Assembly (NCBI RefSeq): GCF_000275845.1
Contig: NW_006766923.1
Coordinates: 53,967-117,966, forward strand
Source: Dichomitus squalens LYAD-421 SS1
Lineage: Eukaryota > Basidiomycota > Agaricomycetes > Polyporales > Polyporaceae
Direction of reading: 5' to 3'
DNA length: 64,000 bases
Below, in pieces: positions 3,710 through 57,381 of the stretch. The notes beneath the pieces are model-generated. The model saw only the letters and a program-made list of their open reading frames with translations. It was not told the origin of the DNA and did not search any database. The position numbers and the translations under genes are program-made. Each line of letters opens with the position of its first letter. Within the stretch, counting starts at the first letter, position 1.

Positions 3710-5012
3710 ATGGAGTATGTGCAGTGTGCACAAGGTGACGGCGATGAGGCTATATGGGGTTGTATACCTATGAGGTGTGGTGCTGATTCTGCAGATGGCT
3801 ATAACATCTGTACAGATCAACCATCGGGTCACCCTGCAACCACCATTTTAGTGACGGGTTTTGGCATTTCCTTGTTCACCCTCCTACCCACTGGCATACC
3901 TACGCACCTGCTCTCCATCAAACCGCTACCGACACTCATTATCTCCGATGTCTACTATTCACCTTACACCATACACCTGGCGATATCTCCTCCTACTCCT
4001 TCCGGCACTCCTATCAGCATTCCTTCCAGCACTCCTTCCAGCACTCCTTCAAACACTCCTTCTAGTATCGTTACCAGCGACAATATCAAACCAGCTTCTG
4101 ACGTGCATTCCAACACCACCTCTACTACGACAACCAATCCCTTCGGCCCTACCGCCTCGCCGCTATCAACGAGCGGGCCATCTTTGGTATGTCCCTTTAC
4201 TCCCATTGGTAGCTGTTCATTCACATTAGCCTACCTTTGTTGTAGACGTCTTCCGCTCCTGTTCAAACGCACCCCAACTCCATACCTGTCCATGCTCCCG
4301 TATCTCATCCAGGGATGAGAACAGGCACGACTGCAGGCATCGCTGTGGGAGCTGTCTCACTTGCTATTGCTTGCGCCGTCCTGTTCGTATGGATACGCCG
4401 CAGGAGACGTCGCCCAACGCGGTTAGTTGGGGGAGCGACTCCAGGTACGAGCATATATCGCAGACGTTTAGTGTGCTCATGCTAAGATGACCGCCTTGGG
4501 TTTGTGCTAGATCTTGAAACCGCGACGGAGGAGATCCGGCCCCTGTCCTTGCCCTTCCCACTTCAACCAAACCGGCGGACCCAGTCACTTGCTACATTGG
4601 TCATTGAGAGTCTCTCGGACAACGATGGTAGGTCCCCAAATCCACATTCAGGTATGCAAGAAGCCATTCTCAATCAGTTATTACGACAGGTTCCCTCGTT
4701 CCTCAAGCAGTATCGGGTCTTGGCGTGTTAGTTCCTCTGGAGCCCTCGACCAGCATGGCGCCGATAATGTCAGAGAAACACGCTAATAGCACACACCGCA
4801 TCGCCGGACCTGTACAAGATCCCGCGGAGACGGATAGTGGAGCCTCGAGTAATCGGGCTAACACGCATACCGAGGGCATGAGAAGGCACGAGACGGACGG
4901 AGGTGTCCGCCTTGCTGGTGGGCGAGCGGGGGACGTTCTCGACAATGACCCTGATGGCCGGCGCGACTCCGTGGGATCTACCCTGCCCCCTCCCTACTCC
5001 GATTTCTTGTGA
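3710..5012 (+). CDS. Single-pass Ser/Thr-rich surface protein A with C-terminal PPPY tail
   Basis: Four exons: 3710-4186, 4246-4444, 4511-4627 and 4690-5012, all GT-AG. The ATG at 3710 (MEYVQCAQGD) is the first in-frame Met; no clear signal peptide follows it. The ectodomain has a Cys-containing head (about residues 1-50), then a Thr/Ser/Pro stalk with short repeats of the type SSTPSSTPSNTPSS, expected to be O-glycosylated. One membrane helix (GTTAGIAVGAVSLAIACAVL) follows, with an Arg cluster on its inner side. The cytoplasmic tail ends in ETDGGVRLAGGR and LPPPYSDFL. PPxY motifs bind WW domains, so tail-directed ubiquitination and endocytosis is an inference. Exon layout and tail match surface protein B closely, so the two are duplicates. 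I know no named family or function for the whole protein. Confidence 0.8.
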
Positions 5013-5043
5013 AATTGGGCAGGACCTGAAATTGGGCAGGACC
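5010..5043 (+). repeat. 17-bp tandem duplication over the stop codon of surface protein A
   Basis: The 17-mer TGAAATTGGGCAGGACC occurs twice head to tail (5010-5026 and 5027-5043). The first copy contains the TGA stop. A recent slippage or patch duplication with no effect on the protein. Confidence 0.9.
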
Positions 5044-5599
5044 GATGCTGATCCCGTACCATGGGCGAGCGATGCTCAACGATACCATGATCCTACGGAG
5101 CCGCCCGGTCTCCCTTCCGTCTCTTCAAGCGCCCGTTGGCTCGCCTGACCAAGTTTTTGTTCCACTACCGCTAATGTCTCCCTATCACCTCCCCCTCCCG
5201 CGCCTCTTCCCGTATTGTTATCCCTGCGTCCGGAATCTTCGAAGCTAAGGCTTTCGTGCCCTTGTGTCTCGGATACTGGGAGATGGTGAAGATTGTAAGT
5301 GGCGTTCCGTACATGGTAGCCCTGTCTCGACGCCTTTGACGTCCTTCGTCACGTTTAGCAGGTATGTAGTCTCACCATCTTATGCATCCCGTGTCTGATG
5401 GTCCTCCAGGGGGGAGAGACGCTGTAGTAGCAGTAGCGGTCATTTTATCATCGGAAGCATGAGACGGAAGCGTCGTAGGCTGTGATAAATACAAGGGACT
5501 TCATATGATGTAGCTGTGAGTAGATTAATACTGGCAACCAGTAGCCGCTATAATTCATTTTTGTCGGAAGGACGGTGAGTCGCGATTCAGGTGTATGAC
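5044..5599. other. No gene recognised
   Basis: Short frames only. No similarity to the neighbouring gene families is visible by eye. Confidence 0.4.
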
Positions 5600-6064
5600 A
5601 ACAGGGCATGATAGAAGGGATCAACAGGTAAGTACGCATAAGTACTCTGTGGCATGTGCTAGGAGCTATATCCGGTGTGGTCACAATTACGTGGCGAAGG
5701 GGTGCGGTACAGATAAATTCCGCTGCAGCGTTGAGGGAACATTCAATGTGCCATACATAACGAATGTCTTGAATCATGAGCAAGGAGAAAAGACGATGTA
5801 TACGTTCCCATCCTATCAAGCCGACAAACACGGAAGGGGTCCACAACTTGCGAACATCTAGATAGCCGATGGTGATGAATGTGCTTTGTCAAGTCCAAGA
5901 AGAGGATGTGGCGTAGGTGTCGGGATCTGGTTGACGACACGGCCTCCCATTGTAGGTGGTCGTCACTTACAGTCGACATAATTGAAGAAAGAGTTGCTGA
6001 CTTAGGAGTATGTACATGCATACATGAAGCCAGCAGTCGAGTCTGAATTGTCTTGTTGCGACAT
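5600..6064 (-). pseudogene. MaoC hydratase relic II (5' half)
   Basis: On the minus strand, GAACATGTCGCAACAAGAC at about 6050-6068 matches the start of the intact hydratase gene (GAACATGTCCCAGCAATAC). Further down, the intron end CTATCTAGA and the exon that encodes KSWTPFP are recognisable around 5830-5865. No open frame connects them. With the YTM1 5'-flank relic just beyond it, this repeats the divergent MaoC/YTM1 arrangement seen at 1-3145. The downstream limit is uncertain. Confidence 0.55.
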
Positions 6065-6107
6065 GTTCCTTCAAGGAAGTACAACTAAGCCGAAGATTTT
6101 GTACTAG

Positions 6108-6340
6108 GTGTACTTTTACATAGCGTCGGGTGATACGAGAGCAGGGGTTGTCGTTGGGTGGGAAGAGAGTGCCCGAGGACCGAAGCTCAGCGATAATAGC
6201 GAATACGTGCCGAAGGAGCCAAGGCTTGCCCTTTTCTTGCTATCACTATCAGGTGCTCCAAAACTGAGTCTCGGATTCATCGGGACACCGCTCGCTATAT
6301 TTGCCGTACACTAGGGTCTCGCTCAACGTTACGCGGACGT
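6108..6340 (+). pseudogene. Relic of YTM1 5' flank
   Basis: The 20-mer AGTGCCCGAGGACCGAAGCT, with a shared GGGAAGA just before it, occurs both here (about 6160-6188) and in the 5' flank of YTM1 relic I (about 1410-1440). No YTM1 coding similarity follows; an oxygenase gene begins at 6643 instead. I read this as the truncated right edge of a second MaoC/YTM1 unit. Confidence 0.45.
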
Positions 6341-6642
6341 AGTCTTCTACTTCGATGAAGCGAACGTCGCGGGAACTTGTCCTGTTCTGCTCGCTTCTGT
6401 ACCATCGTTCACTCACGGTGTGGAAAGATACTGAGGAACCGTTGGAGCTCGAAGGTTGAGCGCGATCTCACGGAACGTACTGCGTGCAACCCAACGTCAG
6501 CCAAGCCACGCAATTAGTCTCATTCCCGAAGACCTTTAAACTTAAAAGTAGGTCCCGAGCCCACTTGCTGTTCCCTCTCCGCTCTAGCGTCACAAGTCTT
6601 AAGCCCTGAAACAGCGACAGGCGAACGCACAGCTTCCCCAAG

Positions 6643-8239
6643 ATGCCTGGCACAACCATTCCTCCCGTCCCACATTATCAGCATGCGCCAGTGACGCAAG
6701 AAGACTGTGAGTCCATCTGTACTCGAGAGCACTGTCAGCGCTGAAATATTTTGCAGTGGACTATGCCGATCTAGCCATCATTGACATATCTAAGGCTAAA
6801 ACCCCCGAGGGACGTCAAGAGCTGGCTCCGTTGGTTCGCGAGGCCATGCGTACCTATGGATTCTTGTATATCGTGAATCATGGGCTGACTCAAGCCGAGG
6901 TATGATCCTCAAAATGTGTAGTCGAATTGTAAGCAACATAGTAGGACTAACACACCTTGTACAGAATGATCGCATGTCCGACATTGCAGATATTCCCTTG
7001 TCCCATGTCTCAGACGAAGAGAAGGCCAACTTCGTCGGTAAGATCAAGGAAGTAGGCTCGTATAGGGGCTATAAGCCGCGTCAATTCTGGGTGAGCTTTG
7101 CAATATGACTACGGATCCCCTCTGTTGCTCAGAAATACTCCGCCTCAGACGATCGACAATGGCGTTCGCGACCAGATAGAGCACTATAATAGTGTGTATT
7201 GTCTTGGATAATAGAAATCAAACACCACTGACCTCCTGTAGTGCATCGGCTCATCTTCAATCAGCAGCACCCCAAGGCGCTTCAGCCTTTCCTGCCCGAG
7301 TTACGGGCCTTCACAGAGCACAACCACTACAACGTCCTCCATCCTATCCTCAGGTACGCAACATGGGAGTAACAACGTCCTTCTTCTGACGTATGTGCAG
7401 ATTGCTCGCCTTGGGCTTAGAGCTGCCCGAAGAAACCTTCGTCAAACTGCACAACTTCGACGCCGAAGGGGAAACGTACCGTAAGGCATCTCTTTTCATT
7501 CCTCTTCGGTACCGTTCACATCTTTTTACCAGTCCGCTTTATGAAGTAGTAAGTCTGGCCCACAGCCTCAGCTTATAGGCTTAAGTCAAATTCCTAGGAT
7601 ACATGTTAGTTTCCCCAGGACAGATGACGACGAATCTAAGACACGGAACGTGTGGTTGAAGGGACACACTGGTATGTACCACTCCGTAACCACGACGTAT
7701 CCAATATAGCTCCTGAACTATATATCCTGGGTAGACATTGGCACCATCTCGCTCCTCTGGAGTCAACCTGTCACAGCGCTGCAGATCATGTCTCCGGACG
7801 GGAAGTGGCGCTATGTGAAGCACATCCCTAACGGCATCGTATGTCGCTAGTCATGCATGTCCTGAGCAGGAAACGACACTTACTTAGAGATACACAGATT
7901 GCGAACGCAGGCGACTCGCTGGAGATGATGTCTGGCGGATACTATAAAGCTACGATCCATCGGGTGTTCCAACCTCCTGCGGACCAACGTGGCTACTCCC
8001 GTCTAGGCCTCTTCTACTTCGCGTCCGGCGACGACGACGTGCGCATCCTGCCGTTGGAAGAAAGCCCTGTGCTGAAGCGAGTTGGGATCGTGAGGAGGTG
8101 TGCGGACGAAGACGCGCCGACAATGGGCGAATGGCGGCGGGCACGCACGAAAGTGTATGGGCTCTCCGAGTTACAGCGCAAGGACGACGTCGTCGAGGAG
8201 CAAATCGTCAACGGATTGGTTGTGAGGCATTACAATTGA
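6643..8239 (+). CDS. 2OG-Fe(II) oxygenase paralogue 1 (isopenicillin N synthase-like)
   Basis: Ten exons: 6643-6706, 6757-6899, 6965-7090, 7149-7191, 7242-7353, 7401-7480, 7533-7548, 7610-7671, 7735-7838 and 7898-8239, giving 363 aa in a consistent frame. The N-terminal DIOX_N-type domain (LAIIDISKAKTPEGRQ, GFLYIVNHGL) is followed by the jelly-roll 2OG-FeII domain. The iron ligands read as H214, D216 (GHTDIG) and H271 (IHRVFQPP), with R281 (DQRGYSRLG) as the likely 2-oxoglutarate or substrate carboxylate anchor. The first two positions equal those quoted for Aspergillus IPNS. An intron splits the iron-binding Asp codon. The 7th exon is 16 nt and encodes RFMKY. Very similar to paralogue 6 on the other strand. 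Cytosolic; substrate unknown. Confidence 0.9.
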
Positions 8240-8689
8240 GTGGGAATGGGGGCAGAAGCGTGCACCGGGCACATAGGCGGTGTTCGGCTGTTCGTGAGAG
8301 CCTGCTGATACGGCGTCGAATTGAGAAGGATTTGCACCATGAGGAATGTACGTATGCAGATATAAGGTAGTTGTACTAGTAGCGACGAAGCATTGAAGCA
8401 GAGGTACACACGCTCTGCATCATGGGACCTATGACTAGATTGTTGGAATCCTGGCGTCAAGATGGCGAGCTCGCGGAACGAGCGCCACAGGTCCCGCCCC
8501 CCGACGGATACCCGCGCCCTTATCTACCCCTATTCTACTGTGTATATAAGGTCTATTGTATGTACTATGTACGGCACGCGTTTGCACCGGCCAAACGCGA
8601 ATCCCATTTGTGCCCGCTTGCCCTCGAACTTCTTCATAGATGACTGATAGAACCGACGTACCCGGAGACATGGGATTGCTCTGATGCCA
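8240..8689. other. Spacer, no gene
   Basis: 3' flank of oxygenase 1. A TGTATATAAGG stretch near 8541-8551 is a TATA-like sequence with no gene clearly attached. Confidence 0.35.
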
Positions 8690-8860
8690 GACCAGCAGGT
8701 TACAAGATGAGGGCGATAAGGGTCTTGCAATATCATGGGTGCTACTGTGGATGCGAGCACACAGTGATTTCGAGCAGCGCGACTTACTGTTCTCCGCCAC
8801 AATACCCTTCGGTGTCTTCCTCCTATGTTGCTCACCGCAGAGAGAGACTCGAAGATTTCA
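8690..8860 (-). pseudogene. MaoC hydratase relic III (exon 6-7 fragment)
   Basis: Minus-strand reading around 8770-8830 gives KTPKGIVAEN followed by a donor-like GTAAG, matching KKRVVGVSEN plus donor in the intact hydratase. After a CACAG acceptor it gives APMILQD, against SGIILEN. The rest is missing. It lies upstream of the intact YTM1 in divergent orientation, as expected if the MaoC/YTM1 pair was copied as a block and this MaoC copy then decayed. Confidence 0.45.
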
Positions 8861-9144
8861 GTCGGCTGCCGGTCACGGTCGTCCCGCGTGGTCGGTGGCT
8901 GAGCAGAGCCTGAGGTAGCTGATCTCGACGCGCGTCGCGGCGAAATGTCACAACACGCGTCCCAATGTGATGATTTGCGTGACAGTGACAAAAATATTCC
9001 TCTCTGCGGCTCATCCCAGTCCCGAGGCTGCTCGTCCTGCTCTGCCTGCGCTTCCGGGCTGTCTGCTGTGCTTGTGCCTTCGCTGCTTCTTGCAGGTGTC
9101 CATATATCTCTGAACGCTCCTGCTATAGTGCTTGCTCGCCCTTC

Positions 9145-11050
9145 ATGACGTCGACTTCGGAGCCTAATCACCCCGTGGTTTTCACCACGCAAACTCCCTA
9201 CCCCTTGCCGTCCCAAAAGTTCATGATTCCAACTTCATGGAAGCGCTACCAGCTATCTCAGCTTGTGAACAAGGCGCTTTCACTACCAAGGCCTATCCCG
9301 TTTGAGTTCCTTGTTCGAGGAGAGATTCTCCGCGGAACGTTAGCAGAATGGTGTGCCGAGAGCGGTGTCGGAGAGGTGCGTCAAGTCCAAAATTCTTTTC
9401 CTCATCGCTTCCTGAATCCATGCGACTGTGTAGGAAGAGACTCTTGAGATAGAGTATTTTGAGTCGGTTATGCCGCCTCAGCGGATGTCCTCTCTCCCTC
9501 ACGAAGACTGGGTTTCTTCGATATCATGTCAAACACTTGGGTATGTACGCATTCCTAGACCGTTATCTTTGCCCCTGTGCGTTCCTGTTGCTGTGACTCC
9601 ACTCCTTTGTGAACGCTGGGAGGACTTCGACCCTCAATTCAGGTCCAGTCTGCGTCGTATCCGCGGTTTCCGACGAATTTTGTGCAATTATGTGTGATCT
9701 GGGCTGAGTAAAACCCCATACTTACACTCGATCTGCGGCCCGTGCTCATGGTAATTGGGTCCATCCATATCGTGTGGGGCAATTTAGGAAGACGGAGAGT
9801 GTTGCAATCCGAAAGCGCTTCCTGATACTTATTGTCAAAATGAAAATTTGCTAGCAGAGGGATGGACTAGGTACCGCAACCTCCGAAACGCCTGCTCGTC
9901 GAAGTGTTCTACTATCTCGTTGCATCTGACCTGTGTAAAATCCCGCTCTTCACGCAGACACACTGATCACAGCCTCTCCCATAGGCACTTCCTCACTGCT
10001 TCGTACGATGGCGCCATCCGTGTCTTTGACTACCCCCAAAAACTCCTCCAGACTGTCTCTGTACATCCCGTGCCCATCACTTCGATAGCCGTCGTTCCCT
10101 CCGACTCGCCCGACTCGCATCTCATCGCTAGCGCATCGCACGACCTCACTGCACGTCTGACTCGGGTCGATCTCTCACAAACCGCCGGCCCTTCGAAAGC
10201 ACAGACTGTCGCGTCTCTGCACCTCCACACCGCCCCCGTCTCCTCCGTCGCCGCGAACGCCTCGGGCTCGCATATACTAACTTCATCGTGGGACGGCCTC
10301 ATTGGTCTCTTCGACTCGTCAGTACCGACTACGGACGAAGTCCCTGCGGACAACACTGCCAACGGAGACCGCAAAAAACGCCGCAAGGTCGGGGAAGATG
10401 GCGACCCCGCGCGTCCAAAACGCAAAGCGCCCACTGCAGTGCTGAAGAGCCACACCGCGCGTGTGTCTCGCGTCGTCTTCGGTCGCGACGCGAAGGGCAC
10501 GAGCGCGTTCAGCTGTGGGTTCGACTCGACGGTACGCACGTGGGACGTCGAGAACGGCGTTTGCACCGGGACGATTGTGCGTTGTATTAGAGTGTCCAAT
10601 CGGCTATATACTCACTCTATGTACCTATAGACTGCTTCCACAAAGCCCTTCCTCGACCTTGCGCTCTCCCGCGACGGCTCTACTGCTCTCGCAGCCTCGA
10701 CAGACCGCACAGTCTCCCAATATGACCTCCGTGCCGCGATGACCTCCGCGACGACCCCGTCGATTGCCTCCCTCGCGCATCCCGCGACCCCATCTTGTAT
10801 CGCCGTCTCCCCAGCCGAGGGGAGCGAGCAGCAGCTTGTGACGGGCGCATACGACGGGGTGGTGCGGCTATGGGATTTGAGGAGCACGAAGAGCGCAGTG
10901 GCAGCGTTCAGGGCGTGGGAGGATAGGAAGGAGGGGGGGAGGAAGGTACTAAGTGTGGACTGGGCGAGGGGGCTGGTCGGGGTTGGCGGCGAGGGTGGGG
11001 TAGAGGTGTGGAAGGTCGGGGAAGGAGAGCGGCTGTCCATCTCGTCCTGA
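9145..11050 (+). CDS. YTM1: YTM1, WD-repeat protein of the PeBoW/Nop7 60S ribosome-assembly complex
   Basis: Nucleolar factor (WDR12 in animals) that works with Erb1 and Nop7 in pre-60S maturation and is released by the AAA protein Rea1. Four exons: 9145-9375, 9434-9540, 9985-10576 and 10631-11050, encoding 449 aa, normal for the family. Residues 5-100 form the UBL-like NLE domain (VVFTTQTPYPLP, PFEFLVRGEIL) that contacts the Rea1 MIDAS domain. WD repeats follow, including HFLTASYDGAIRVFDYP, SHDLTARLT, LTSSWDGLIGLFD, SCGFDSTVRTWD and VTGAYDGVVRLWD, with a basic linker KKRRK near residue 230. Intron 2 is 444 nt, much longer than other introns here. This is the only intact copy; three relics lie in the window. 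Confidence 0.95.
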
Positions 11051-11544
11051 TGGACGGAGGTCTCCAGAAGTGCGTGTGTTGACAGTTCTTGATCGAGCTT
11101 GAATTTGAGATGCTGATGATTGTCACCTTGGACACAGTACGTGCTCGACGTGTGAAGCGTTGTGTATAATTGCACGCTGCACCATCATATAAGTAGCAAC
11201 AGAAGCGGACAAAGCGGGAACAGTGAGTGATTGTTGATATCGACTTCCTGGTGCGTGAGATCATCAGCTCTGTTTCCTAGTCGATGCTGAGGTTTTCCAC
11301 ATAGTGTGGTATGGAACCAGGTATCTGTTTGAAGTAGTTATCCGGTGACCATCTCGTCGAACACGTCAAATAGTCCCACAGTCGCCTTGAGCTGTGGAAC
11401 GTACTCACAGCTGCCTGTAGGGAGCAGAATATTGAAGCATTTGACTCCGTGATTACGTTGCCATGTCAGGCTGCCATAACATAAAGGGTCGTGGGCCCCG
11501 CATGGGTGTAAGGTGCGTCGTCTCTATTGTGCTACATCTCGGAC
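11051..11544. other. Spacer between YTM1 and surface protein B
   Basis: No gene seen. The first part resembles the spacer after YTM1 relic I, supporting duplication of the whole block. Confidence 0.4.
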
Positions 11545-12863
11545 ATGTCTCGAACTACGACGTACAAGTTTTGCGAGGTATTAGGATCTTCAGACGACGC
11601 GTTCTGTGCTCCAGTCTTCTGTGAACCCTTGTCCTCCGACAATGGCGATCTTGCTTGTGCAGTCGTCCCGGATGAGGCCGCGGGTGTCCCCATAGCTACG
11701 ATTGTTGCACCGCAAACGGACCTTACCGCTGCGTCGATTTTATCCACTGGTACTTTGAATATCGGGACTGGACATGGAGATATAGCTTCAACTCTCTTCT
11801 TTTTCTTGCACACATCTACTACCACGGCCTTGGCGACTACACCTATTCCTTCTGCCTCTGGCTCGCGGTTGGGGTCGTCAGTAAGTCGTTTAGCGATTTC
11901 TAGCCATCGCTAAGATCTGGTACAGATATTATTCATAGATTAACTCTGAATCCACACGAAGCGCATCTACTACAACACCTCCCCAGCCATCTACCACAGC
12001 ACCTCCCCAGCTATCCAGCACATCAACTCCTCTGACATCCAGCGCAAGGCCTCCCCGACCATCAAGTACAACACCTGCCCAGACATCCTTCACAACCCAA
12101 GGAAGTACTTCCACCACGACATCCTCCCAAACGACAAGCCCATCTTCCCAAACGACAGACATAACATCCCAGACGGCAGGCTCTCATCAAGGCGTGAACA
12201 TACGGATAGTTGCAGGTGTCGTAGTGGCAGCAGTGCTTGCTGCTGTAGGTTGCACCGTACTCTTCCTGCGCCTATGCCGAAGGCCGCGAGGCCGCCCGAC
12301 GTCATCAAGCCTGAAAGCGACTCACGGTAAGAGACTAGATCCCAGCACCTTCTATGTACAGTCCTCACTGGACTGGTTTCGCAACAGAGCTTGAAGCGGC
12401 TGCTGGGCAAAGTGGGATCCCTGCGTTTGGCACTCGACCTCAACGAGATCGAGGGATTCGAACCTCCTTCGATATGGTGCTGGTCAACGAGGTCTCTCAA
12501 GTGGATGGTAGGTTCATCATATTGCACTGAACTGGGGCCTACGGACGTTCTCATGAAATCATTACTCCAGGTGTTCTAGTCTCTCAACTAGCCAACGTCA
12601 GCGGAACTGAGCCCCGTGCAGCGCCAAATGCACCGTCGGAAAAGCTTCTCCATAACATAGGACGCATGCGCGATTCGCCTGCGACAGGCGGGAGAACCCC
12701 AGATGATCGGGGGTTGGAACATAGGGAGAGGACGAGACGCCATGACACCGACGGAGCTGTCCGTCTTGCTGGAGGGCGAGTAGGAGACGATCTAGGACAG
12801 GATATCGACACTCGAAGCGACTCGGTGGGCTCCACGCTACCTCCTTCTTATTACCAGTTGTGA
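11545..12863 (+). CDS. Single-pass Ser/Thr-rich surface protein B with C-terminal PPSY tail
   Basis: The start is taken at ATG 11545 (MSRTTTYKFCEV). Exon 1 ends at 11880; exon 2 begins after a TTCATAG acceptor near 11939 and encodes a Thr/Pro-rich stalk (TTPPQPSTTAPPQ-like runs, SSQTTSPSSQTT). A membrane helix (VNIRIVAGVVVAAVLAAVG) follows with an Arg-rich inner flank. Two further introns (around 12328-12388 and 12510-12570) lead to the tail, which carries DTDGAVRLAGGRVGD and ends LPPSYYQL. Exon boundaries, tail motif and position 3' of a YTM1 copy parallel surface protein A. There is no signal peptide, so insertion may rely on the single helix. Family function unknown; PPSY still fits the WW-ligand consensus PPxY. 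Confidence 0.78.
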
Positions 12864-13079
12864 AGGACCTTGTTCGGACGGACACGAGCATGTTGCTCCT
12901 TTGCCGTAGGATATCAGTCAAGTATACGATAGTATCTTATCCGGCTTGGGTCGCATGGCGCATGCAATGGAACTCCTTCGCCTTGACGGCTTCCCTTTCA
13001 TGATGAGTGCCTGTACATACACCGGTGTAGGAATATGGACGCTGCTTCTGGGTCTCAGTGCCTACTATGCGCTATAGCA
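12864..13079. other. Spacer, no gene
   Basis: Joins surface protein B and YTM1 relic IV. No MaoC relic is visible here. Confidence 0.35.
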
Positions 13080-13810
13080 ACTATCCTCTCCAAGTGAATG
13101 CTACCAGGGCCTCGCGGTGCACTGCAGTGTATCGTCCATCGCCTACGACCTTCTTGAACACAGTAGAGTGACGTCGATCTGTCGTCCACGGCAATCCGGC
13201 CCGGACCGGCACCTGTGGAGATTGCGGCTCTACCCATCCATTCCACGCCTGTCTCGCATATACCTGCCTCTTGGGACGGTCTCATTGGTACCTGCAATAT
13301 CTATATGCTCACAACAGATGGGGTACCTCCGCATGAATGGAGGCCGTATGGAACGCGCCGCCACGAGGATGCAAGGACGTGGAACACAGCAAATCCGTGC
13401 GTTCGACTCTATTCTCCTATGATCGTACTAGAGATCCTTGATGTACAGCTCTATACGTAAAGGGTAACAGTGCACGGGCCTCTACCGACCGTACCACCTC
13501 CAATTGCACACGACATCCACCCCGCAACGTCGGCCCTCCGAGTCACTCTTCGCGCTCTTTGTTTCCCACTGCCACGCCACCTCGCCCTACGCCCTCATCA
13601 CGATATGATGCTCGCCTACAACGGAGCCGTCCCGAGATATGTGCGGTAACACATAACGAAGTCGCGAAGGGTGAAAGGAATGCGAAGGATGCGTTGGATG
13701 CGTTCAGGTCGTAGGAGAATAAGGAGGAGGCATGGAAGGCCGGGTGGAGGAGCAGTTGGTTTGTACTGCTCCCAAGAACTTGAACCGCTGGAGGTGGGCG
13801 CTGAAAGGCT
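13080..13810 (+). pseudogene. YTM1 relic IV
   Basis: The translation around 13215-13345 reads PIHSTPVSHIPASWDGLIG...LTTDGVPP, a clear match to LHLHTAPVSS...TSSWDGLIG...PTTDEVPA in the intact YTM1. Later pieces (13480-13800) match the start of the last exon and its end (ATGGAAGGCCGGGTGGAGGAGC). Stops and deletions are frequent and the N-terminal domain is absent. It stands 5' of surface protein C, repeating the YTM1-then-surface-protein order. Confidence 0.75.
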
Positions 13811-14317
13811 CACCGGTGAGCCTTTGACTAGCGATCAATGACTGTGGGATTGTGCGATTTAAACTTACGGATCACTGTCACTTTAGACGGGATTCGGCCA
13901 TGTACCTAGACGATTGTCTTCATCGTTTGCTGTCAATATTGTAAGGAGTCATGATTGATGCCATTAGCGAGCGTGAGCCGTGGCTGACTCGATGTCAAGA
14001 TTGCTAGCGTTGGCAGATGCGGTGAGACGACCATGGGAACAGTGGCATTCTGCCATGCATGTGTTCATGCATGCGTCCAGGAAGCTTTTGTGCGCTAGCC
14101 CCGAGAATCATTGGCGTAAATCAGTTTTTGGTAAGTACAGTCCTCTTACAGGATCTAACGTTGCGTATTCGCTGACAGAATCATGGAAAACGGTATATCT
14201 TCCTGATAAGCATCACTTTAGTATAACACATGCCTAATGCATACCGCCTCATAAGTTCATAGCGGGCATAGGAGGTACACAATATCCCCTGGGCCTTGAA
14301 GGTTTCGTCCTGCTAGC
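13811..14317. other. Spacer between YTM1 relic IV and surface protein C
   Basis: No recognised gene. Short frames only. Confidence 0.35.
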
Positions 14318-15783
14318 ATGGCGACACCGACAGTAACTCACCCAGCCTCTTCGTTGTTTTCTCTCACCGAGACTACAGTGATCTCACCTCCATCGGAGAC
14401 TATTCAAAATACTTCTACGACGTACTACTACTTCTCTGAGGAGGTCACTGTCTGCATATGTGACCAGCGTATCCGTTGTTTCCTGGAGTACCGCTTCAGG
14501 GATATCGTCTATCAGCGACTGTCTCACCTCACCTTCTACAACAGCTGTAAATGGTCCACAGCTCGTTACTGTCGTCGAATCGTCACAGTCTTCCACAACG
14601 ACTCAGCACCTACCTGCAAAGCCCACTTCTCCACGCCTTTCCTCCCTTGATTCTTTGACCAGCGCGTCCCCTTCAGGTCCACCTACTCAGAGTAAAAGTC
14701 ATGCCTCTGGCACATCAACAAGTTTCCTATCACAAACGTCCACCAGCAATGGTTCTCCCAGTAATCAGGGGGCCGCCCTGTCAAGCTCGAGGTATTCTCT
14801 TGGTCCTGCTGTAACAACGGCGACGCTCATTTGGACGCTAAAGGACGGAAGTACGACTACTACCACTCTGATGATGTCTCATGTGCGTACAGGTTTTCCT
14901 TGCGCCGAAAGGCTCTAACTCATACCCAACACAGACATTGACATATGCGTCCATGACCACGAGCTCAATCACGCCGGTCTCCCACAATGATATACCGATA
15001 GCTCCACCCCCAGGCCATTCTTCTTTTAGAATCGGATCCATTATGGGCGCCGCCATTGGAGGGGCGGTGCTAGTCATCGGGATGACCTTGCTGATTCTGG
15101 GTGCGGCACGCTACATGCGGCAGATAGTTCCAAGAAGCGCCAGCGATGTGGCAGGTCGGTGATTACGGTTCCTTCTTTAGACCCGCTTTCTGATCTGGGG
15201 CTCTAGCGTTCATGACAGACATCGAGCGGCTCACCGAAACCCTGTGAGAAGGTCATACCAATCTCAACGAGCAGCGTTCAACGCAGATGTTGAGCGTCCT
15301 ACCCGTGTCACAGGGAGAAGGTGAGTACTGAAATAGTCCATACCTGGTTTCACCTGCCGAGATCACGAATCACGCACTCGCCGCATAGCTTCGCAAGCTG
15401 TACAGGCGTCGGATTTGCATGTGAGAATCGACCGTAGCTCGTCGCAGCCTTATCCTCTCCCACCAGCCTCCAATCCCATGCCTCAGAAGATCGTCTCTCC
15501 CCTTCGCTCCTCACATGGCATTTCCCTGTCCAACCACACAATGAGCACTCATGATAGACTTCCGCTACCGCCTGGTCTTCTATGCATCAATCATGGAAAC
15601 CATCAAGATCCAACTTTCAGGACCCGTGCCTGTGATCCGGGTGAGACAGGAGGTCATGTTGTTGACTCGACCGTACGAGCCACTACTAGGAGACAGCTTA
15701 ATGGGGCTTATGAGGTGGAGGATGATCGAACCAGTAACTCTGAACGATCATCGTGGACGCTTCCTCCTCCCTATTCTCGCTGA
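14318..15783 (+). pseudogene. Surface protein C, frameshifted member of the Ser/Thr-rich PPxY family
   Basis: ATG at 14318 (MATPTVTHPASS) opens a Ser/Thr-rich ectodomain. The frame breaks near 14450: the sequence reads SEEVTV in one frame and SAYVTSVSVVSW in the next, with no room for an intron. Downstream are a Ser/Thr stalk, an intron around 14884-14936, a membrane helix (IGSIMGAAIGGAVLVIGM, about 15025-15095) and a fragment reading TDIERL (cf. SDIEKL in protein D). The last stretch reads VEDDRTSNSERSS and WTLPPPYSR, ending at 15783. The DGGVRLAGG motif is not recognisable. Either a pseudogene or one sequencing indel plus divergence; I favour the former because the tail exons also carry stops. 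Confidence 0.6.
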
Positions 15784-16959
15784 TCACCTACTTTGAGAAT
15801 ACACAGAGTCATTCATCACAATGTTCGCCTCGGATTTGTGCATCTGTAAAGTGCTATATCAGGACGGGGTATGGTTCGCACGTAGTCATGTAACTTGCCT
15901 CAGCGGTTCGCCCCGAGTATGGTGTAGCCCTCCGTTGACCATGGAAGTGAGTCCTTAAGACGCAAAACCACATTACCCGACTAGACCTAGACAGTGGTAG
16001 TAGCCTCCGGTACCTCCGGTCGCGGGAGGTATGGGAGTGCTATCATGTCCCGGTCTCTTATATCCCAAAAGCTAGCAATTCATGTAAGAGAGAACTTGTT
16101 CCCCATTATCCAGATGGCTAATCTAAGCATATTATTGAGGTACTCGGATATCCTGCATACGGTGGTAGGTACACTTTCCACACCGTATTAGCAGCCTGGG
16201 CCGCCGACGTTCACCCGCCAGCCATGTAATGGACTCGATCACGGAGATGGCTATCACTATGTTCCGATACTACATCTGTTTGTATCACACTGTATTCTAC
16301 GCAACCGGGAGTTCACAACGAGACGTACTAGTCAAACATGCCCAGTGCCCACAGATGCAGTCACACAATCACCGTCCTTGTATCTGAATTCGCCCCCGAT
16401 CTGCTCACCTGAAACATTAGAGCTCTCCGGAAACCGTAATGGAGTCCCTAGATACTAATTAAGTGCCCTTCCCACGTGGAATTAGCACACTGCGTAGAGT
16501 CCTAGCTCACGATTGATGAGGAGTTAGTGATTTTGAGACGTCTCAGGCCCACACGGAGAATTCTGTCACACTGTGATCTGACTCCTGGCCTCTCTGATAA
16601 ACGTGCGAGGACCAGTTTGCAATCATTCCCATGATCAATCTGCAGTAGGAACTTTACACATGAACAATTTTTACAGTTTCGATCATTCCTAATAAAGATG
16701 CATGATACTCCATGCTCTCATACTGACGGACGCTCGCTGAGGTTCGGAACCGCTCACTTCTGTACGTGATAAACCCCGAGCAGTCAAGCGCACCGGTTCA
16801 ATCATCGCACTAGAACAACCTCCACCAACATATGGGAGACCGCGGAACACCCGCTCAACTTCCCAAGCACCCCTGGAAGCAACCGACCTTAAAAGTCGAT
16901 GGTCCAGGACCAATTCATAGATATTCCCCCACTCTACCTATCCCCTAGGCCTATCCCAA
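15784..16959. other. 1.2-kb spacer, no gene recognised
   Basis: No conserved protein segment on either strand. It should contain the promoter of surface protein D near its right end. Confidence 0.4.
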
Positions 16960-18242
16960 ATGGATGGTGTAAGCACCATTTTCGTAGAAACGTGCGTTTT
17001 CATTAATGGCGTTGGGGGATGTTCTACTGTCATCGGACGACCTACCCCAGGCACTCCCGCCCCTTTAACCTTCGACTCCCCCACAACCACTTCCAGTTCG
17101 ACGTCTAGGAATCCTCCCAAATCTACCTCTACCACAGTCATTCCAACTATCTCTACTTCCAATACGTCCTCTCGGAAGCCCTCGTCATCCCCTCTAGCGT
17201 CGATACCCGTGTCTACTGCTCCTGACAACACGAGTCTTGTGTCAGTGCCGCCACCCAGGTCTAGCAGCGAATCGCGGTCATCTTCCACATCGCAGACCCT
17301 ATCATCATCCTCTTCTCCCACTCAAAGTCAGAGCCACAGTAGCGAAATTACTCGGGATGCTTCCGGGACGGGGACCCTACCGTCGGCGCCGACCTCGCCT
17401 TCATTGTCGTCGTCACGCAGTGCATCCCTGCTTCCATCAGCTTCGTCTTCGCACCCGAGCCTTGCAGAGTCAACCATCGTCGGTATTGCCACTAGTTTGG
17501 GAGCGGCACTTTTATTGTTGGCATTCGGTGTGTGGTACGCAGTGAGACGGAAGCGTCGGAGAGCGAAGGTGCAAATTTCGGAGAGTACAATCGCGGGTGC
17601 GTCAGAAGCTGCATTCTGGCCTCGCGGCTCCGGCATTGATGTAGCACTCATGCCCTCAGATTTGGACCAAGAGTACGAGGCCACCGCCTCGACTCGTGAA
17701 GCGCTCCTATCTGCTCAAAGCGATATAGAGAAACTCCGTGGCGGACAGCGTAGCTCTGTGGCTGGCACAGTGGGAGTGTCCCGCTGTGAGTCTTCTTCGG
17801 ACTGTAATGGATCCCCTGGAATCACCGTGCACGTTCTATCGCAGGTTCCACTATCGTTCAGACATCAAGCTTCGGGCCCTTCTTGAACCACGGGGCTGCG
17901 CAAGCCGTTCCATCACCGACAAGCACTTCGGAGAAGCGCTCTACGGGTGCTGCTGCCTCCGGCACCATCACAAACGTCGCTCTGAGTCTTGCGAGTGAGG
18001 AGCGGCCGCATCCCACCGTGGAGTTAGGAAGCGAGGACCCTGGAGACAGGCATGTCTGGGAAGAGAACGTTGATGGTGGAAGAGAACATGATGGAAGACG
18101 TACGAGGCTGTTCAGATATGAAGCAGATGGAGGGGTCCGTCTTGCCGGAGGCCCCCTGGACGGGGGTGACTCGTCTACCGAGGTAGACCAGCTCAACGAC
18201 AGCATGGTCGTTACGATGCCTCCGCCATATTCCCGGTATTGA
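16960..18242 (+). CDS. Single-pass Ser/Thr-rich surface protein D with C-terminal PPPY tail
   Basis: Two exons, 16960-17785 and 17845-18242, give 407 aa. The head (MDGVSTIFVETCVFINGVGG) has two Cys and no signal peptide. About 130 residues of Ser/Thr-rich stalk follow. A membrane helix at about residues 173-195 (IVGIATSLGAALLLLAFGV) is followed by RRKRRRAK. The cytoplasmic part contains STREALLSAQSDIEKLRGG, then the family tail EADGGVRLAGGPLDGG and the end MPPPYSRY. The start ATG directly precedes the conserved head and the phase agrees across the intron. Gene order does not place it behind a YTM1 copy, so it is either an older tandem copy or has lost that neighbour. Confidence 0.82.
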
Positions 18243-18253
18243 GTACCATCAAT

Positions 18254-31801: not shown

Positions 31802-32237
31802 GGAGAAAACGTACATCATGGACTCTTCGGCACCATATGCCCTCCGTAACATCCGCCCACAGCTTCCAGTGAGCCTTCCAGGTATCTCCAGGGGTTGTTT
31901 GAAGATATATGCGCGACAGATGCAGAAGACAGCGTGAAATCGACCGAAGGCGGGTGGAACATCCGACATACGAGCGGCCAACTTAAAACCGGCACCGTGC
32001 CCTGCGCGTCATGATCCTGAGCCGGAATATGCAAGAATGAGGTGGTTACATTGAGCTGTCGAGGAGATATCGTCGTCCGAAGTTCCTTTGGGGGCGCTTA
32101 GGAGGGGAAAACAGGCAAATGCGCGAGACGCGGCGCGACGCTCTCACGACAAGCGAGCTGAAACCGGCTGTAGTGTAGACCTCTAACATCCGCCACCGTC
32201 TCTCTCGTCCTCCACCACATCCGCACAGCGACGAGGC

Positions 32238-47034: not shown

Positions 47035-47043
47035 CTCTTCTAC
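47035..47043 (+). repeat. Right 9-bp target-site duplication of the Mutator-like element
   Basis: CTCTTCTAC, identical to 46180-46188. Confidence 0.75.
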
Positions 47044-50171: not shown

Positions 50172-51098
50172 ATGGCCACATGCAGAGCACGACCTCGGAA
50201 GCATCATCACGAATCCATACGACGTCTGAAAATCACCTTCGACTGCCTCACGTCCATCCTGTCCGTCATTTCCCTCATACCAGTAGCCCAAGCGGCGGCC
50301 CCAAACAACGCGCTCCAGCTATTCCCACTCCTTCAAGCCTTCCAGTGTCAGGATCTATTCATTTCCTGGCAAGGCGGGATCCCAGACTATGGCCTTACGG
50401 TCATCAGCGACCACGTAGAGGAGTTTTCAGGCATATCTGGGACGACATTCCAGTGGCTGGTGGATGCTCCCTTGGGTACCACCGCGACCATATCGCTTAA
50501 GGACAGCACTGGCTCTAGTACCGACAGTCCGCTATTTCAAGTAGTTGACGGCCCTGGTTCCAGCAACAGTTGCTTGCCGCTCTCGTCTCCGACCACTTCT
50601 AGCTCTACCTCCACTTTCCCCTCTGCTTCGTCTCCGTTGATCACTGTGACTGTGGTAGAGAGCACTCCTACCTTGCTCTCCGGTGGACCTTCGCATCCCT
50701 CGCTTCCCGCTGGTGCGATCGCCGACATCGCGTTGGAGGCTGCACTATTGTCGCTTGCTATTGTCGGGCTGCTGATCGCATTCATACTTCATTGGAAGGA
50801 ACGTGCGCGGGACGTAAGGGATGGAGCTGCAGCAGGTACGCGATATGTCTCGGATCAGGCCCAGCGCGTCCTTTTGACTTGGAGTATTGTTATAGACTGG
50901 CTCGAATCTCCCCGCCCGCTCACGCCGAATCCTTGGAGTATGAGCCAGTCCACGGCCGCAGCGTCCATCGCCCCCCAAGTTAGCCTAAGGCGTATCCAGG
51001 AGTTGCGTGACGGCACCCTCAGGCGGGGTACAACCACTGGCATGCAGAGCGTTGCTAGTCACCGCCACCATTCAGTCGTCGACACTGGCGCCAAGTGA
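50172..51098 (+). CDS. Surface protein E: Kre9/Knh1-like ectodomain, one membrane helix, no PPxY tail
   Basis: Start chosen at ATG 50172 (MATCRARPRKHHHESIRRLK), a basic stretch followed by a hydrophobic signal (LTSILSVISLIPVAQA). The ectodomain has the pattern seen in proteins F and G: FQCQDLFISWQGGIPDYGLTV, FQWLVDAPLGTTATISLKDSTG, then a single late Cys (SNSCLP) before a Ser/Thr stalk. This resembles the small beta-sandwich of Ser-Thr-rich GPI-anchored and Kre9/Knh1 cell-wall proteins. A helix (LEAALLSLAIVGLLIAFIL) follows. The cytoplasmic part lacks DGGVRLAGG and PPxY and stops at 51098. Remnants of a longer tail lie downstream, so this copy appears truncated. Confidence 0.7.
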   Translation: MATCRARPRKHHHESIRRLKITFDCLTSILSVISLIPVAQAAAPNNALQLFPLLQAFQCQDLFISWQGGIPDYGLTVISDHVEEFSGISGTTFQWLVDAPLGTTATISLKDSTGSSTDSPLFQVVDGPGSSNSCLPLSSPTTSSSTSTFPSASSPLITVTVVESTPTLLSGGPSHPSLPAGAIADIALEAALLSLAIVGLLIAFILHWKERARDVRDGAAAGTRYVSDQAQRVLLTWSIVIDWLESPRPLTPNPWSMSQSTAAASIAPQVSLRRIQELRDGTLRRGTTTGMQSVASHRHHSVVDTGAK

Positions 51099-51180
51099 GG
51101 CAACGGTCTTGTACACATTGCCTACTCTTGGTGATGGATCCTCCCCTCCCTCTGTTCGATTTGATGCCCAGAGGGAGAGG

Positions 51181-51707: not shown

Positions 51708-53108
51708 TCATACTACCGAATACGGAGGGGGGAGCCCGGACCCTCCTTGGTTCACGTCTCGTTGTTCTACAACCGCATCGACCATCTGCCCGCCACTTGC
51801 ATCGTCACCCTCGGAGATAGGTTCAGGACCACCGAGCAAGCGCACGCCCGCATCCGTCTCTTGCCGGGGTGTCCTTGGTGATCGGGGCGTCCTCGGACTG
51901 CCCACGCTGCTCGCCAGAGTACTCGTATCGCGATCGCGACCTGTGTCGCGGTCTCCCGAAGAGCTGGAGGGAGCTGTGGAAAGCCCGAGACTCGCTGTGT
52001 GCGCTCGCAGGGGAGCCGTGGAGGCATCGGTGCTCGCATATGACATCGTAGACGTATCCGAGGTGTTGTGCGTGTGCAAGGGTCTTTTTGCCTTGCGAGT
52101 CTGAGATTGCCCATCCGAAAGAGACGTCGTGGACTGATGTGGGAGAGGAGGGACGGGATAAGGGCTATGAGGTACGCTGATCTCGCCGCGATCCGTGCTG
52201 GGGCTCGAGGGTCCCGAAACGATCACGGAGTCTGTAGGTGAGGGAGGCTTGAACGGGTCCACGACGTTAGCCAGTCCGTTCATGATGCCGTCGTACGTCA
52301 TGGCAGGGAGGAGATCGCGCTGCTGCATAGCGAGCGTCGGGGCCCCATTGGCGAACGTTGGTGACAATACGGATCTGTCGATGTCGAAGTCATGAGTGCG
52401 GGGCCTGATGCGTCGCGCAGCGCGCTTGAACCACGAAGTGCGAGCAGATTCAGGAAAAACACCGCTTGAGCTGGACGAAGGTGAGGGTGTGTGTATCCCG
52501 GATCTGCGGCGACGGAGTCGGCGCGTGAGGATGCACCAGACCGCCAGCGCAGTGACGATAACTGCGATTGCCCCAACTCCGATGGCGATCCCTACGATAG
52601 GGCCTACACTCAGTCCTGTCCGCGAAACGGCGGCGAGTGTGCTGCTTTGTGAAGGTGAGCTAGTCGCAGAAACGGAGACGACTAGAGATGATGGACCTCC
52701 GATGCTAGTGGTCGGGTCACCTAACGCGGTGGAAGAAGAGCTGATGCAGCTGTTATCGGCCCCTGGTAGGACCTGCACAGATGGAATCCCGCCCGCGTCC
52801 CCGGCTGCGTCTTTGATGTCGAACATCAGGTTGCTACCCGCGGTGAAGTTGACTGTCCAGAGAAGCATCGATGCATTCAAGTTCATGTAAGCCTGAACGA
52901 GACTAGGGTCTTCGTTCCCGTCGGGTTTGAGTGGACCTATTTTGAGCGTGAATGGGGGGCTGCCGCCTGTCCATGTAAGAGTCGTATGGGCACATTGCGT
53001 GAAATTTGTTTGCTGGAGGAGTATGGATTCGGCGCTGACAACAGGTGCAAAGGACAGACTGAAAAGCACAAGCCCGACCGTGTATGCTATAGAGAACAGC
53101 TTCAACAT
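51708..53108 (-). CDS. Surface protein F: Kre9/Knh1-like ectodomain with PPPY tail
   Basis: An intronless frame ending at 51708. I start at ATG 53108 (MLKLFSIAYTVGLVLFSLSF), which gives a textbook signal peptide ending VVSA|ES; an upstream extension has no support. 466 aa. The ectodomain (TQCAHTTLTWTGGSPPFTLKI, MLLWTVNFTAGSNLMFDIKD, DNSCISSSS) matches E and G. A Ser/Thr stalk precedes the membrane helix at about residues 167-195 (IVGIAIGVGAIAVIVTALAV), then RRLRRRR. The long tail (about 270 aa) contains FPESARTSWFKRAARRIRP, many Ser/Pro, ETDAGVRLLGG and the end LPPPYSVV. The combination suggests a cell-wall-facing sensor or adhesin whose level is set by WW-domain partners; that role is inference. 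Confidence 0.85.
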   Translation of the reverse strand: MLKLFSIAYTVGLVLFSLSFAPVVSAESILLQQTNFTQCAHTTLTWTGGSPPFTLKIGPLKPDGNEDPSLVQAYMNLNASMLLWTVNFTAGSNLMFDIKDAAGDAGGIPSVQVLPGADNSCISSSSTALGDPTTSIGGPSSLVVSVSATSSPSQSSTLAAVSRTGLSVGPIVGIAIGVGAIAVIVTALAVWCILTRRLRRRRSGIHTPSPSSSSSGVFPESARTSWFKRAARRIRPRTHDFDIDRSVLSPTFANGAPTLAMQQRDLLPAMTYDGIMNGLANVVDPFKPPSPTDSVIVSGPSSPSTDRGEISVPHSPYPVPPLPHQSTTSLSDGQSQTRKAKRPLHTHNTSDTSTMSYASTDASTAPLRAHTASLGLSTAPSSSSGDRDTGRDRDTSTLASSVGSPRTPRSPRTPRQETDAGVRLLGGPEPISEGDDASGGQMVDAVVEQRDVNQGGSGLPPPYSVV

Positions 53109-55235: not shown

Positions 55236-55560
55236 CTACGTACCTGTGGCGCTCGTCGGGGATGACGGCGTTCTTGTAGGCTCCACGCTTTCCTGGACTG
55301 GAATCAGCAAAATGAGTAACATGTTGCCTCCATAAGCCTCGACCCCAGCAGCTTGTTTGATCTCAGTAGGGTCTTGGTCTTCGAGGGTCACGGGAAATGG
55401 CCCCATTTCTCTCCGCGACGCTCTCATCGCACTGGGACTGTGTTGTCACTTGCATATCAACCGCTCCGAATTCGCAACGTGGGTCCTCTAGCATGGCCCA
55501 TAGCCGCAGGCACACATTTGGTCTCAATAGCTTCGAACTAGAATGGAAACCATCATTCAC
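55236..55560 (-). pseudogene. Relic of a Kre9-like surface protein (E/F/G family)
   Basis: Minus-strand pieces in two frames give VTTQSQCDESV and then MGPFPVTLEDQDPTEIKQ, YGGNMLLILLIPVQE and TRTPSSPTSATG. These line up with TQCAHTTLTW, SPPFTLKIGPLKP, ASMLLWTVNFTAG and a Ser/Thr stalk in protein F. A frameshift separates the first two pieces, and no membrane helix or tail follows. Confidence 0.4.
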
Positions 55561-56164
55561 TGTCTCATCTCAATACTCTGTGGTATATTACGATGCTCTC
55601 CTCACGACGTAAGCTCTCCTTCAGGCCTGTAATACTGTTTTCTGCGACTGAAGAACTCGATATGAATATGGAGGGTGAACGTACGAAAGGAGATCAGAAA
55701 TAGGAGGTCCGAGCCGGAGACGTCTATGGGGCCCCACGCTCTTCGTCCCGTCAGCGGATTCGGTAATGGAGCTCCTCGCAATTCATATCGAGGTAAGCAA
55801 GGATAGCTAAGGCAGTTATCGGAGGCGTTTTTGAACCCCCTCTACTCTCACGATCTGCAAAGAGAGGCCGCAATTGAGGTCGACTTTGCTTGCGCGACGC
55901 CGGTGTGTAGTGTAATTTCCTTCTAGAATATAGTCGTTGCTTGGTGGCACTATCTGTAGGGCATCGGAGTCGAATCAAGACCTAGAAGCGTGATGCGGAA
56001 ACATTCCTCGTGACTGTTTAACAAAAAGGTAGACGGTACCACATTTGAAGGATTACAGAATGCACGTGAGAGGGCCCATGACGTCTTCATATCATGACAG
56101 GGAAAAGACTACAACTAATAACCAAAACGAGGACATCACGGCATGCCATTTAGGGGGAATTACC
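55561..56164. other. Spacer, no gene recognised
   Basis: Lies 3' of surface protein G. Confidence 0.35.
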
Positions 56165-57381
56165 TCAGTTGATTGAGTAATGAGCATATGGCGGAGGTAG
56201 CGTTGTCTCCCCCGACTCGCTCCTGACGTCCGAGACCTCCGTCTCTCCAAGTGATCCAATACGCTCGGAGCCCCCTGAAAACCGCACGCTCCCATCCGCC
56301 CCGAACACCATCACGCCACCGCCCGTACCGCCATCCCTCAGCACCGACGAAGCCACAGCCTCGGGCGCCTCGTCAGATCCGAACTGCGTGGGGCTCACGC
56401 TCATAGCGCGCACATCCGCCGTAGACGCGTTCGTGCTTGAGTTTGATAGCTCCCGCATGTGCTTCTGGGCTCGCCTGATCTCCGAGAGCGACGTAGTCGA
56501 CTCCCGTGGGACGAGGTATGGCGTTGGGCGCAGGTCCTGCTCGCCGCGGTTAGAGCCACCCCCGAACATGGACTGGGACGGGGCCACGAAGTTGTACGGT
56601 TTGTCCGGATCGGCAGAAATGAGCGTGGAAGAGATGCCGGTGTAGGGCACGCTGGAAGCTCCGTCTGAGAATGCGGGCGACACGATGTTCCTATCGTAAT
56701 CTTTCCCTATGCACGGTGTGCAGAGAATCAGCCCATGTGCGAGAAATGTATGGTCGGCGAGAGATGAAGCGATTCGAGGCAACGCTACGTACCTGGTTGT
56801 TGCATAAGGGACCTGCGCCTCAGCACGGCCCAGATGGCACCGACGATTAGTCCGATGCCAATGAGGCTAACAGCGACCGCGATCCCGGCGATAGCGCCTT
56901 TACTCAATCCGCCTCCGGGAGACTGAACTTCGGTTGACATAGGGGGGACGATGGCTTGGCTTGAGGCCGTCATTGGGCTGAGAGTACTCTCGATGTTGCT
57001 AGAGGTGGCGGCCTGCGAGGTCGTCGGGCTGGCAGCGCTCAAGCAACTGGAATTCGAGCTCTGCAGCACGATCGAATGTCCGCCTGCACTGCCGGTCAAG
57101 CCGCTCCCGACCACATCAAGTTGAAGTGTGGTGTTCGCAGGAAAATCGGGTGTCCACGTGAAGACCAGATTAGTGATATTGATGTGCCGCTCGTTTTGGC
57201 TAGTAACTTGCATGTTGCCTACGAGCGGCTCAACATCTAATCTGTAAGGCGGAGTGCCTCCCGTCCAGTTCAGGGTGACGGGTTCGCAGAGAGTGACGGT
57301 GGAAGGTGGATGGAAGGATATCGGGTCTTCAGCGCTCACAAGAGGAAAGAGGAACGCAGCACTGAAGACGAGCCCACCCAT
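56165..57381 (-). CDS. Surface protein G: Kre9/Knh1-like ectodomain with PPPY tail
   Basis: Two exons joined by an intron at about 56707-56792 (Q-P-G|K-D-Y). Start at ATG 57381 (MGGLVFSAAFLFPLVSAEDP), an ideal signal peptide; ATG 57465 would add 28 residues. The ectodomain (TLCEPVTLNWTGGTPPYRLDV, LVFTWTPDFPANTTLQLDVVG, SNSSCLSAAS) parallels E and F. A stalk of Ser/Thr/Ala leads to a helix at about residues 160-187 (AIAGIAVAVSLIGIGLIVGA), then LRRRS. The tail (about 210 aa) has QKHMRELSNSSTNAS, GADGSVRFSGGSERIG and ends LPPPYAHYSIN, so the PPxY lies six residues from the C-terminus. Same strand as F; the two are probable tandem duplicates separated by a MITE and a relic. Confidence 0.83.

Follow-up and report, generated by a model that had tools for sequence, protein, structure and literature searches.

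Based on a sequence analysis of a 64,000-nucleotide stretch of the polypore Dichomitus squalens LYAD-421 SS1 (Polyporales; genome of 40.3 Mb in 116 contigs), hereafter the window (C41:53967-117966), we propose, with a probability of roughly two in three, that six of its genes (A, B, C, D, F and G) carry copies of one polypore cytoplasmic tail module on different wall-facing ectodomains, and that this tail docks to the ubiquitin ligase Rsp5. The tail is a two-motif module, in which a box with the consensus D-G-G-V-R-L-A-G-G is followed by a C-terminal PPxY. In what follows, C41, C62 and similar labels denote contigs of the D. squalens genome, and P00xx numbers denote proteins from homology searches.

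A first-pass annotation of the window had described six genes whose tails end in PPxY, with a Ser/Thr-rich ectodomain, one helix and an Arg cluster. A six-frame scan confirmed (L/M)PPxY followed by two to six residues and a stop in all six genes, and for A, B, D, F and G computation gave a single transmembrane helix, preceded by 25-45% Ser/Thr and followed by an Arg-rich stretch; gene C keeps the helix and PPPY, its N-terminal exon structure being provisional. PPxY lies within eight codons of a stop at ten places in the window, seven of them in frames open for at least 60 codons: the six genes and one frame at 10934 (-) that was not treated as a gene. The other three (13730 -, 58455 + and 63563 -) are in frames shorter than 60 codons. 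Twenty simulated windows with the same dinucleotide transitions gave a mean of 0.15 such motifs (maximum 2) in frames of at least 60 codons, and of 3.2 (maximum 6) when no frame length was required. The model of gene A, with its last intron ending at 4689, agrees letter for letter with the deposited protein P0005 (DICSQDRAFT_149192). F and G begin, by eye, with a signal peptide; the models of A, B and D contain none, and N-out insertion without one is therefore needed unless a first exon was missed.

The box, which the first-pass annotation had missed, emerged from the aligned tails. The earlier statement that the rest of the tail drifts thus holds for the linkers and fails for this second block, which is degenerate in C but conserved in the other five genes; nor does PPxY alone mark the family, since the box is equally conserved and some members end in LPxY or in neither motif. 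Box and PPxY are 21-32 residues apart in these five genes and 15-31 in nine proteins from the homology searches. Genome searches with one full protein, single tails and a DNA pattern of the box together yielded 25 genes (six in the window, ten on C62, two each on C69 and C76, and one each on C68, C27, C6, C64 and C28), of which 18 have a C-terminal PPxY and three, two on C76 and one on C69, a C-terminal LPxY; for C27, C62:89146 and C62:109557, reading was confined to the tail exon. The searches that yielded most of these genes used tails with PPxY in them; the box pattern scan is blind to that motif. It returned 24 matches, compared with seven for a reversed control. Sixteen were judged to be members, ten of them ending in PPxY and 13 in L/PPxY, and when the residues after the box were shuffled in 20,000 trials at most four of 16 carried PPxY. 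Eight matches (C1, C2, C3, C7, C11, C19, C24 and C42) were dropped as spurious, the surrounding frame being unlike the family; C42 was judged on codons alone, and C11 (DAGMRFAGG) is the least clear of those dropped. The genes on C69, C76 and C28 form a further kind, with IPPSYHT and in most also LPSY before the box. Gene E, a paralogue of F and G with a transmembrane helix and neither box nor PPxY, is a natural contrast to them; neither it nor the Ig (immunoglobulin)-like genes on C34 and at C62:122960 showed a PPxY tail in the frames read.

The ectodomains in front of these tails fall into unrelated classes, and the earlier picture of a single family of sensors or adhesins gives way to that of a tail module common to Ig/FnIII-like, CBM35/CBM6-like and Ser/Thr-rich types. 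Among 17 ectodomains compared by BLASTP (E cut-off 0.01 within this small set, with low-complexity sequence masked), one class unites F, G, E and the Ganoderma proteins P0001 and P0004; a second unites P0007, P0009 and P0011 from D. squalens, P0012 (Lentinus), P0016 (Cubamyces) and P0018 (Trametes), to which P0021, P0022 (Mycena) and P0023 (Earliella) are added. The ectodomains of A, B and D matched none of the others in this set and are Ser/Thr-rich without a recognised domain. The last 60 residues, by comparison, link A, B, D, F, G, P0001, P0004 (to G only), P0007, P0009, P0011, P0012 and P0016 across the classes; those of E, P0018, P0021, P0022 and P0023 were not linked to any other tail. 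The F ectodomain is modelled as a six-strand sandwich (predicted local distance difference test, pLDDT, 89) whose nearest folds are, weakly, fibronectin III and Ig (best E 6.8e-3, none below 0.001). The second class, modelled on P0009, is a jelly roll nearest to CE2 (E 2.3e-6), CBM35 (1.6e-5) and CBM6 (7e-5); against CBM35/CBM6 structures E ranges from 1.6e-5 to 9e-5, and the CBM35 structure 2w46 gives a template modelling score of 0.60 by target length (Foldseek). Mean pLDDT of this model is 54.5 over 415 residues, with block values of 74-95 at residues 61-150 and 51-82 at 21-60, a helix at 272-301 and a tail mostly below 50, as expected for disorder. By its predicted fold the jelly-roll class is a CBM35/CBM6-like module, with putative sugar binding; no Pfam family matched it over cut-off (best CE2_N, 16.3 bits against 27.9). 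Hydropathy and an Arg cluster after the helix point to a single-pass layout in relatives of the window proteins as well; P0007 has a second hydrophobic stretch besides its transmembrane helix. Nothing useful came from NCBIfam or from searching PDB sequences with the aligned F ectodomain, and a supposed resemblance to Kre9/KNH was dropped when F, G, E (E up to 1) and P0001 gave no Kre9_KNH match in Pfam.

Three homology searches, one with a profile that included tails and thereby favoured tailed proteins, returned 27 proteins, all of which were examined. The seven from D. squalens all end in PPxY. Eight of the 20 from other species do so as well (P0004 with 14 residues after the motif), P0021 ends in LPxY, and 11 end in neither, P0025 being counted among these because its LPxY lies 19 residues from the end. 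Five of the 11 (P0002, P0003, P0013, P0015 and P0017) match in the ectodomain, and by eye their predicted sequences seem to end, or to run out of frame, ahead of the tail; the other six (P0019, P0020 and P0024-P0027) are weak matches. These 11 count as misses, but we do not interpret them as loss of PPxY. The box is present in four of the 20, from Ganoderma leucocontextum, Lentinus tigrinus, Lentinus brumalis and Cubamyces sp., and all four end in PPxY; none of the 20 keeps the box without that motif. P0018 (Trametes), P0022 (Mycena) and P0023 (Earliella) have the jelly roll and a PPxY end after a stretch that is coiled-coil-like by eye, and lack the box. Their tails may represent a second type of PY tail among mushrooms; a search of the D. 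squalens genome, made without a positive control, did not find this kind.

Both motifs are under purifying selection while the linkers drift. By the Nei-Gojobori method (NG86), the ratio of nonsynonymous to synonymous substitution (dN/dS) between C62:71534 and C62:75750 is lower in the box (0.08, 12 codons), the spacer (0.13, 17 codons) and the PPxY end (0.14, 11 codons) than in the Ser/Thr linker (0.67), the tail linker (0.64) and the transmembrane helix (0.37). For the pair A and B, the box (13 codons) gives 0.16 and the PPxY end (9) 0.13, compared with 0.42 in the ectodomain, 0.43 in the transmembrane helix and 0.52 in the linker. The purifying selection at PPxY that had been put forward for checking is therefore seen, at 0.13-0.14 over few codons. 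Over the last 52 codons, six further pairs gave 0.24-0.33 in three cases and saturation in three. Two alleles of A differ at 29 of 189 ectodomain residues and at 10 of 182 from the helix onwards; P0007 and P0010 differ at seven of 298, one of 141 and, in the tail end, none of 60. It is very improbable that the tails have no present function and that box and PPxY are common only through recent duplication or gene conversion. The paralogue clusters on C41 and C62 would fit such a history, but stretches of unchanged protein sequence often differ at synonymous sites (dS of 0.29-1.80 across the segments with box and PPxY), 17 genes vary in the synonymous codons that they use for the prolines, similar tails stand behind dissimilar ectodomains, and PPxY is kept in the box-bearing proteins of other genera.

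Alternatively, clathrin adaptors might chiefly recognise the conserved Tyr as part of a YxxPhi endocytic signal (YSDF, YYQL, YSVV, YAQL), with the prolines secondary. Of 23 tails, 17 have a hydrophobic or aromatic residue at Tyr+3, against a background of 24% (the tails are related, so these counts are not independent), and nine of 23, counted by eye, fit strictly (Phi = L, I, M, V or F). In the remaining 14, however, Tyr+3 is not Phi (eight of them have Tyr), and three of 26 tails have no such residue; moreover, YxxPhi needs no Pro, whereas L/P-P precedes the Tyr in all 13 members ascertained by the box that have a C-terminal Tyr motif. We consider this reading improbable.

Docking to Rsp5 has a candidate partner in the same genome. 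A search for WW domains gave 16 matches, ten over cut-off, and the three best share a single C9 frame, in which they are upstream of a HECT domain. HECT occurs at four places (C9, C20, C32 and C70), and WW matches adjoin only the one on C9. The three domains have the canonical group-I pattern Y-Y/F-V-D-H-N-T-R/K-T-T-T-W; the stretch upstream of them is C2-like by eye, and by sequence the WW stretch matches structures of the Nedd4 family, Nedd4-like and Itch first and Rsp5 among them. D. squalens thus possesses a ligase of the Rsp5 type, equipped with three group-I WW domains, which the tail probably recruits. Rsp5 WW domains are described as accepting LPxY besides PPxY (PMC1557994, PMC10721834), and in Cryptococcus Rsp5 is reported to be needed for wall integrity (PMC11481503). 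The earlier proposal of WW-domain recruitment is thus strengthened by the conserved motif and the C9 ligase, while binding and turnover are steps that we infer. Further WW matches over cut-off lie on C1, C5, C12, C15, C49 and C72. PPxY might instead dock a WW protein other than Rsp5 as a ubiquitin-free scaffold, like the C-terminal PPPY of beta-dystroglycan, a single-pass, mucin-like protein with a basic juxtamembrane stretch. The tail proteins follow this layout, and the further matches would offer partners, but the three strongest belong to the C9 HECT ligase, and by match strength such a scaffold seems to us unlikely. Two WW matches of near-equal score occur at C1:3283591-3284888, separated by about 1.2 kb; both lie in open frames of 84 residues and contain a TAG.

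If Rsp5 is the partner, the Arg cluster would keep the tail in the cytosol, an orientation that is itself presumed, PPxY would engage a WW domain of Rsp5, either at the plasma membrane or on the endosome, and the bound ligase would ubiquitinate its own protein or a partner, so that the surface amount would follow the state of the ectodomain; the box would bind a second partner. The fungus may in this way control varied surface proteins through one common switch. The tail is Lys-poor and probably disordered, with an L/PPxY often followed by a hydrophobic or aromatic Tyr+3. Its Lys content is 0.6-2.4% (1-5 Lys), compared with 4.1% in six other open-reading-frame stretches of the window (1,245 residues), and no Lys occurs within the final 44-62 residues of the six tails in the window. 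Because the tails are Lys-poor and these ends Lys-free, we lean slightly towards a role as adaptor, as for yeast Rcr1, rather than cargo.

Single-pass PY-motif membrane proteins are well known as a kind, and the tail proteins, with one transmembrane helix, a conserved L/PPxY and a presumed cytosolic orientation of it, are of this kind. The yeast proteins Rcr1 and Rcr2 are not known to have a large ectodomain or the box, and yeast Sna3 is not known as a Ser/Thr-rich surface protein. Rcr1 and Rcr2 are transmembrane proteins with PPSY and VPEY, of which VPEY is described as binding Rsp5 with PPSY cooperating, and they act on wall synthesis (PMC5578492, PMC9105457), Rcr1 by down-regulating the chitin synthase Chs3 (PMC9105457). 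They are, however, a gene pair rather than a repertoire, and the RCR family was set aside when eight window stretches and four proteins gave no Pfam RCR match at E up to 1. Sna3 is likewise a membrane protein; through its PPxY it binds WW domains of Rsp5 and is steered into the endosomal pathway, but it is ubiquitylated on one target Lys (PMC2171029), unlike the Lys-free tail ends of the window. Animal Comm, PRRG and CYYR/Shisa proteins are also single-pass with a cytosolic L/PPxY, some without a signal peptide; that of Comm and PRRG4 binds Nedd4, and the extended PY motif of Comm, GLPSYDEAL, is resembled by the hydrophobic or aromatic Tyr+3 of the polypore tails (PMC5578492). They differ in being animal proteins with other ectodomains (Gla, Cys-rich). 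The wall-integrity sensors Wsc and Mid2/Mtl1 share a Ser/Thr-rich, O-mannosylated ectodomain and a transmembrane region (PMC9148135), but as candidates they fell away: Pfam gave no WSC match in the proteins scanned, and the best Mid2 score, for the C6 protein, was 15.1 against a cut-off of 23.2. CBM35/CBM6 modules resemble the predicted fold of P0009, here membrane-anchored with a PPxY tail. The earlier claim that no such family had been described stands among the matches listed in the literature searched, which included the string GVRLAGG and left most subscription journals outside its coverage; we have met no account of the second motif, of the module occurring on unrelated ectodomains, a CBM-like one among them, or of its multiplication within a single genome.

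Several observations weigh against docking to Rsp5 through a conserved two-motif tail. Three box-bearing members (C62:101767, C69:160153 and the gene on C28) have no C-terminal PY motif, the first two carrying L/PPxY before the box, and C62:109557 has the box followed by an in-frame TAG ahead of a PPxY-like continuation; this TAG is either a natural truncation or an error. Membership among the box matches was judged by eye, and unfiltered only ten of 24 end in PPxY and 13 in L/PPxY; related genes, moreover, are not independent counts. The dN/dS values rest on few codons (9-11 at the PPxY end, 12-13 in the box), the spacer is saturated between A and B, the jelly-roll ectodomain of C62:71534 and C62:75750 is as constrained as the motifs (0.15), and the alleles of A differ at five of the last 60 residues, not below the rest of the tail. 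Gene E lacks PPxY and yet is Lys-poor as well (1.9%); low Lys may therefore be general, which weakens the argument for an adaptor and disqualifies low Lys as proof of that role. Finally, Rsp5 is reported to be dispensable for the effect of Rcr1 on chitin (PMC5578492), in contrast to the account of Chs3 control by Rcr1 (PMC9105457).

Table 1. Genes and tail motifs in the window (positions count from its first letter)
Feature	Position	Strand	Remarks
Gene A	3710..5012 (exons 3710-4186, 4246-4444, 4511-4627, 4690-5012)	+	gene model; N-terminal 4-Cys stretch, Ser/Thr-rich, one transmembrane helix, RRRRRR, tail
A box	4896..4922	+	DGGVRLAGG
A PPPY	4986..4997	+	LPPPYSDFL-stop
Gene B	11545..12863 (exons 11545-11880, 11939-12326, 12388-12507, 12571-12863)	+	gene model
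B box	12750..12776	+	DGAVRLAGG
B PPSY	12840..12851	+	LPPSYYQL-stop
Gene C	14319..15783 (start 14319 is a guess)	+	transmembrane helix in exon 14935-15158, tail in last exon
C PPPY	15763..15774	+	TLPPPYSR-stop; box degenerate (VVDSTVRATTR)
Gene D	16960..18242 (exons 16960-17785, 17845-18242)	+	gene model
D box	18126..18152	+	DGGVRLAGG
D PPPY	18219..18230	+	MPPPYSRY-stop
Gene E	50172..51098	+	Ig-like ectodomain paralogue of F/G, transmembrane helix, without box or PPxY
Gene F	51708..53108 (single exon)	-	signal peptide (by eye), Ig/FnIII-like ectodomain, transmembrane helix, RRLRRRR, long tail
F box	51828..51854	-	DAGVRLLGG
F PPPY	51720..51731	-	LPPPYSVV-stop
Gene G	56165..57381 (exons 57381-56793, 56706-56165)	-	signal peptide (by eye), Ig-like ectodomain, transmembrane helix, RRR, tail
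G box	56270..56296	-	DGSVRFSGG
G PPPY	56186..56197	-	LPPPYAHYSIN-stop

A and B, neither with a modelled signal peptide, share an N-terminal four-Cys spacing, C-x10/11-C-x4-C-x10/11-C (3710-3811 and 11545-11658, +). Elsewhere in the window, fragments of 2OG-Fe(II) oxygenases were recognised by Pfam at 32983-33471 (-) and 60048-60599 (+), and a stretch at 35017-35478 (-) is similar to them by eye without a Pfam match. A run of 365 N (31130-31494) lies inside an AT-richer stretch (GC 0.43 in 30001-32000), and no direct DNA repeats of at least 40 bases were found in 3000-19000.

In the basidiomycete Cryptococcus, the wall-integrity pathway is described as conserved except for its sensor proteins (PMC9148135). 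The D. squalens genome has 16 matches to WSC domains and is thus not known to lack sensors. A CBM-type ectodomain outside, joined to a conserved ligase-docking motif inside, would be a direct candidate link between the wall and Rsp5, and the signature DGGVRLAGG followed by a terminal L/PPxY offers a simple means to sort unnamed fungal surface proteins. As a rather unlikely but wider view, polypores, and perhaps mushroom-forming fungi generally, might possess a repertoire of membrane-anchored, polysaccharide-sensing ectodomains, CBM35/6-like, Ig-like and others, joined through the two-motif tail to Rsp5. If this were true, binding of polysaccharide from the wall or from plants outside would set the ubiquitin-controlled removal of surface proteins inside, and these proteins would be a basidiomycete receptor class with ligase recruitment as its output.

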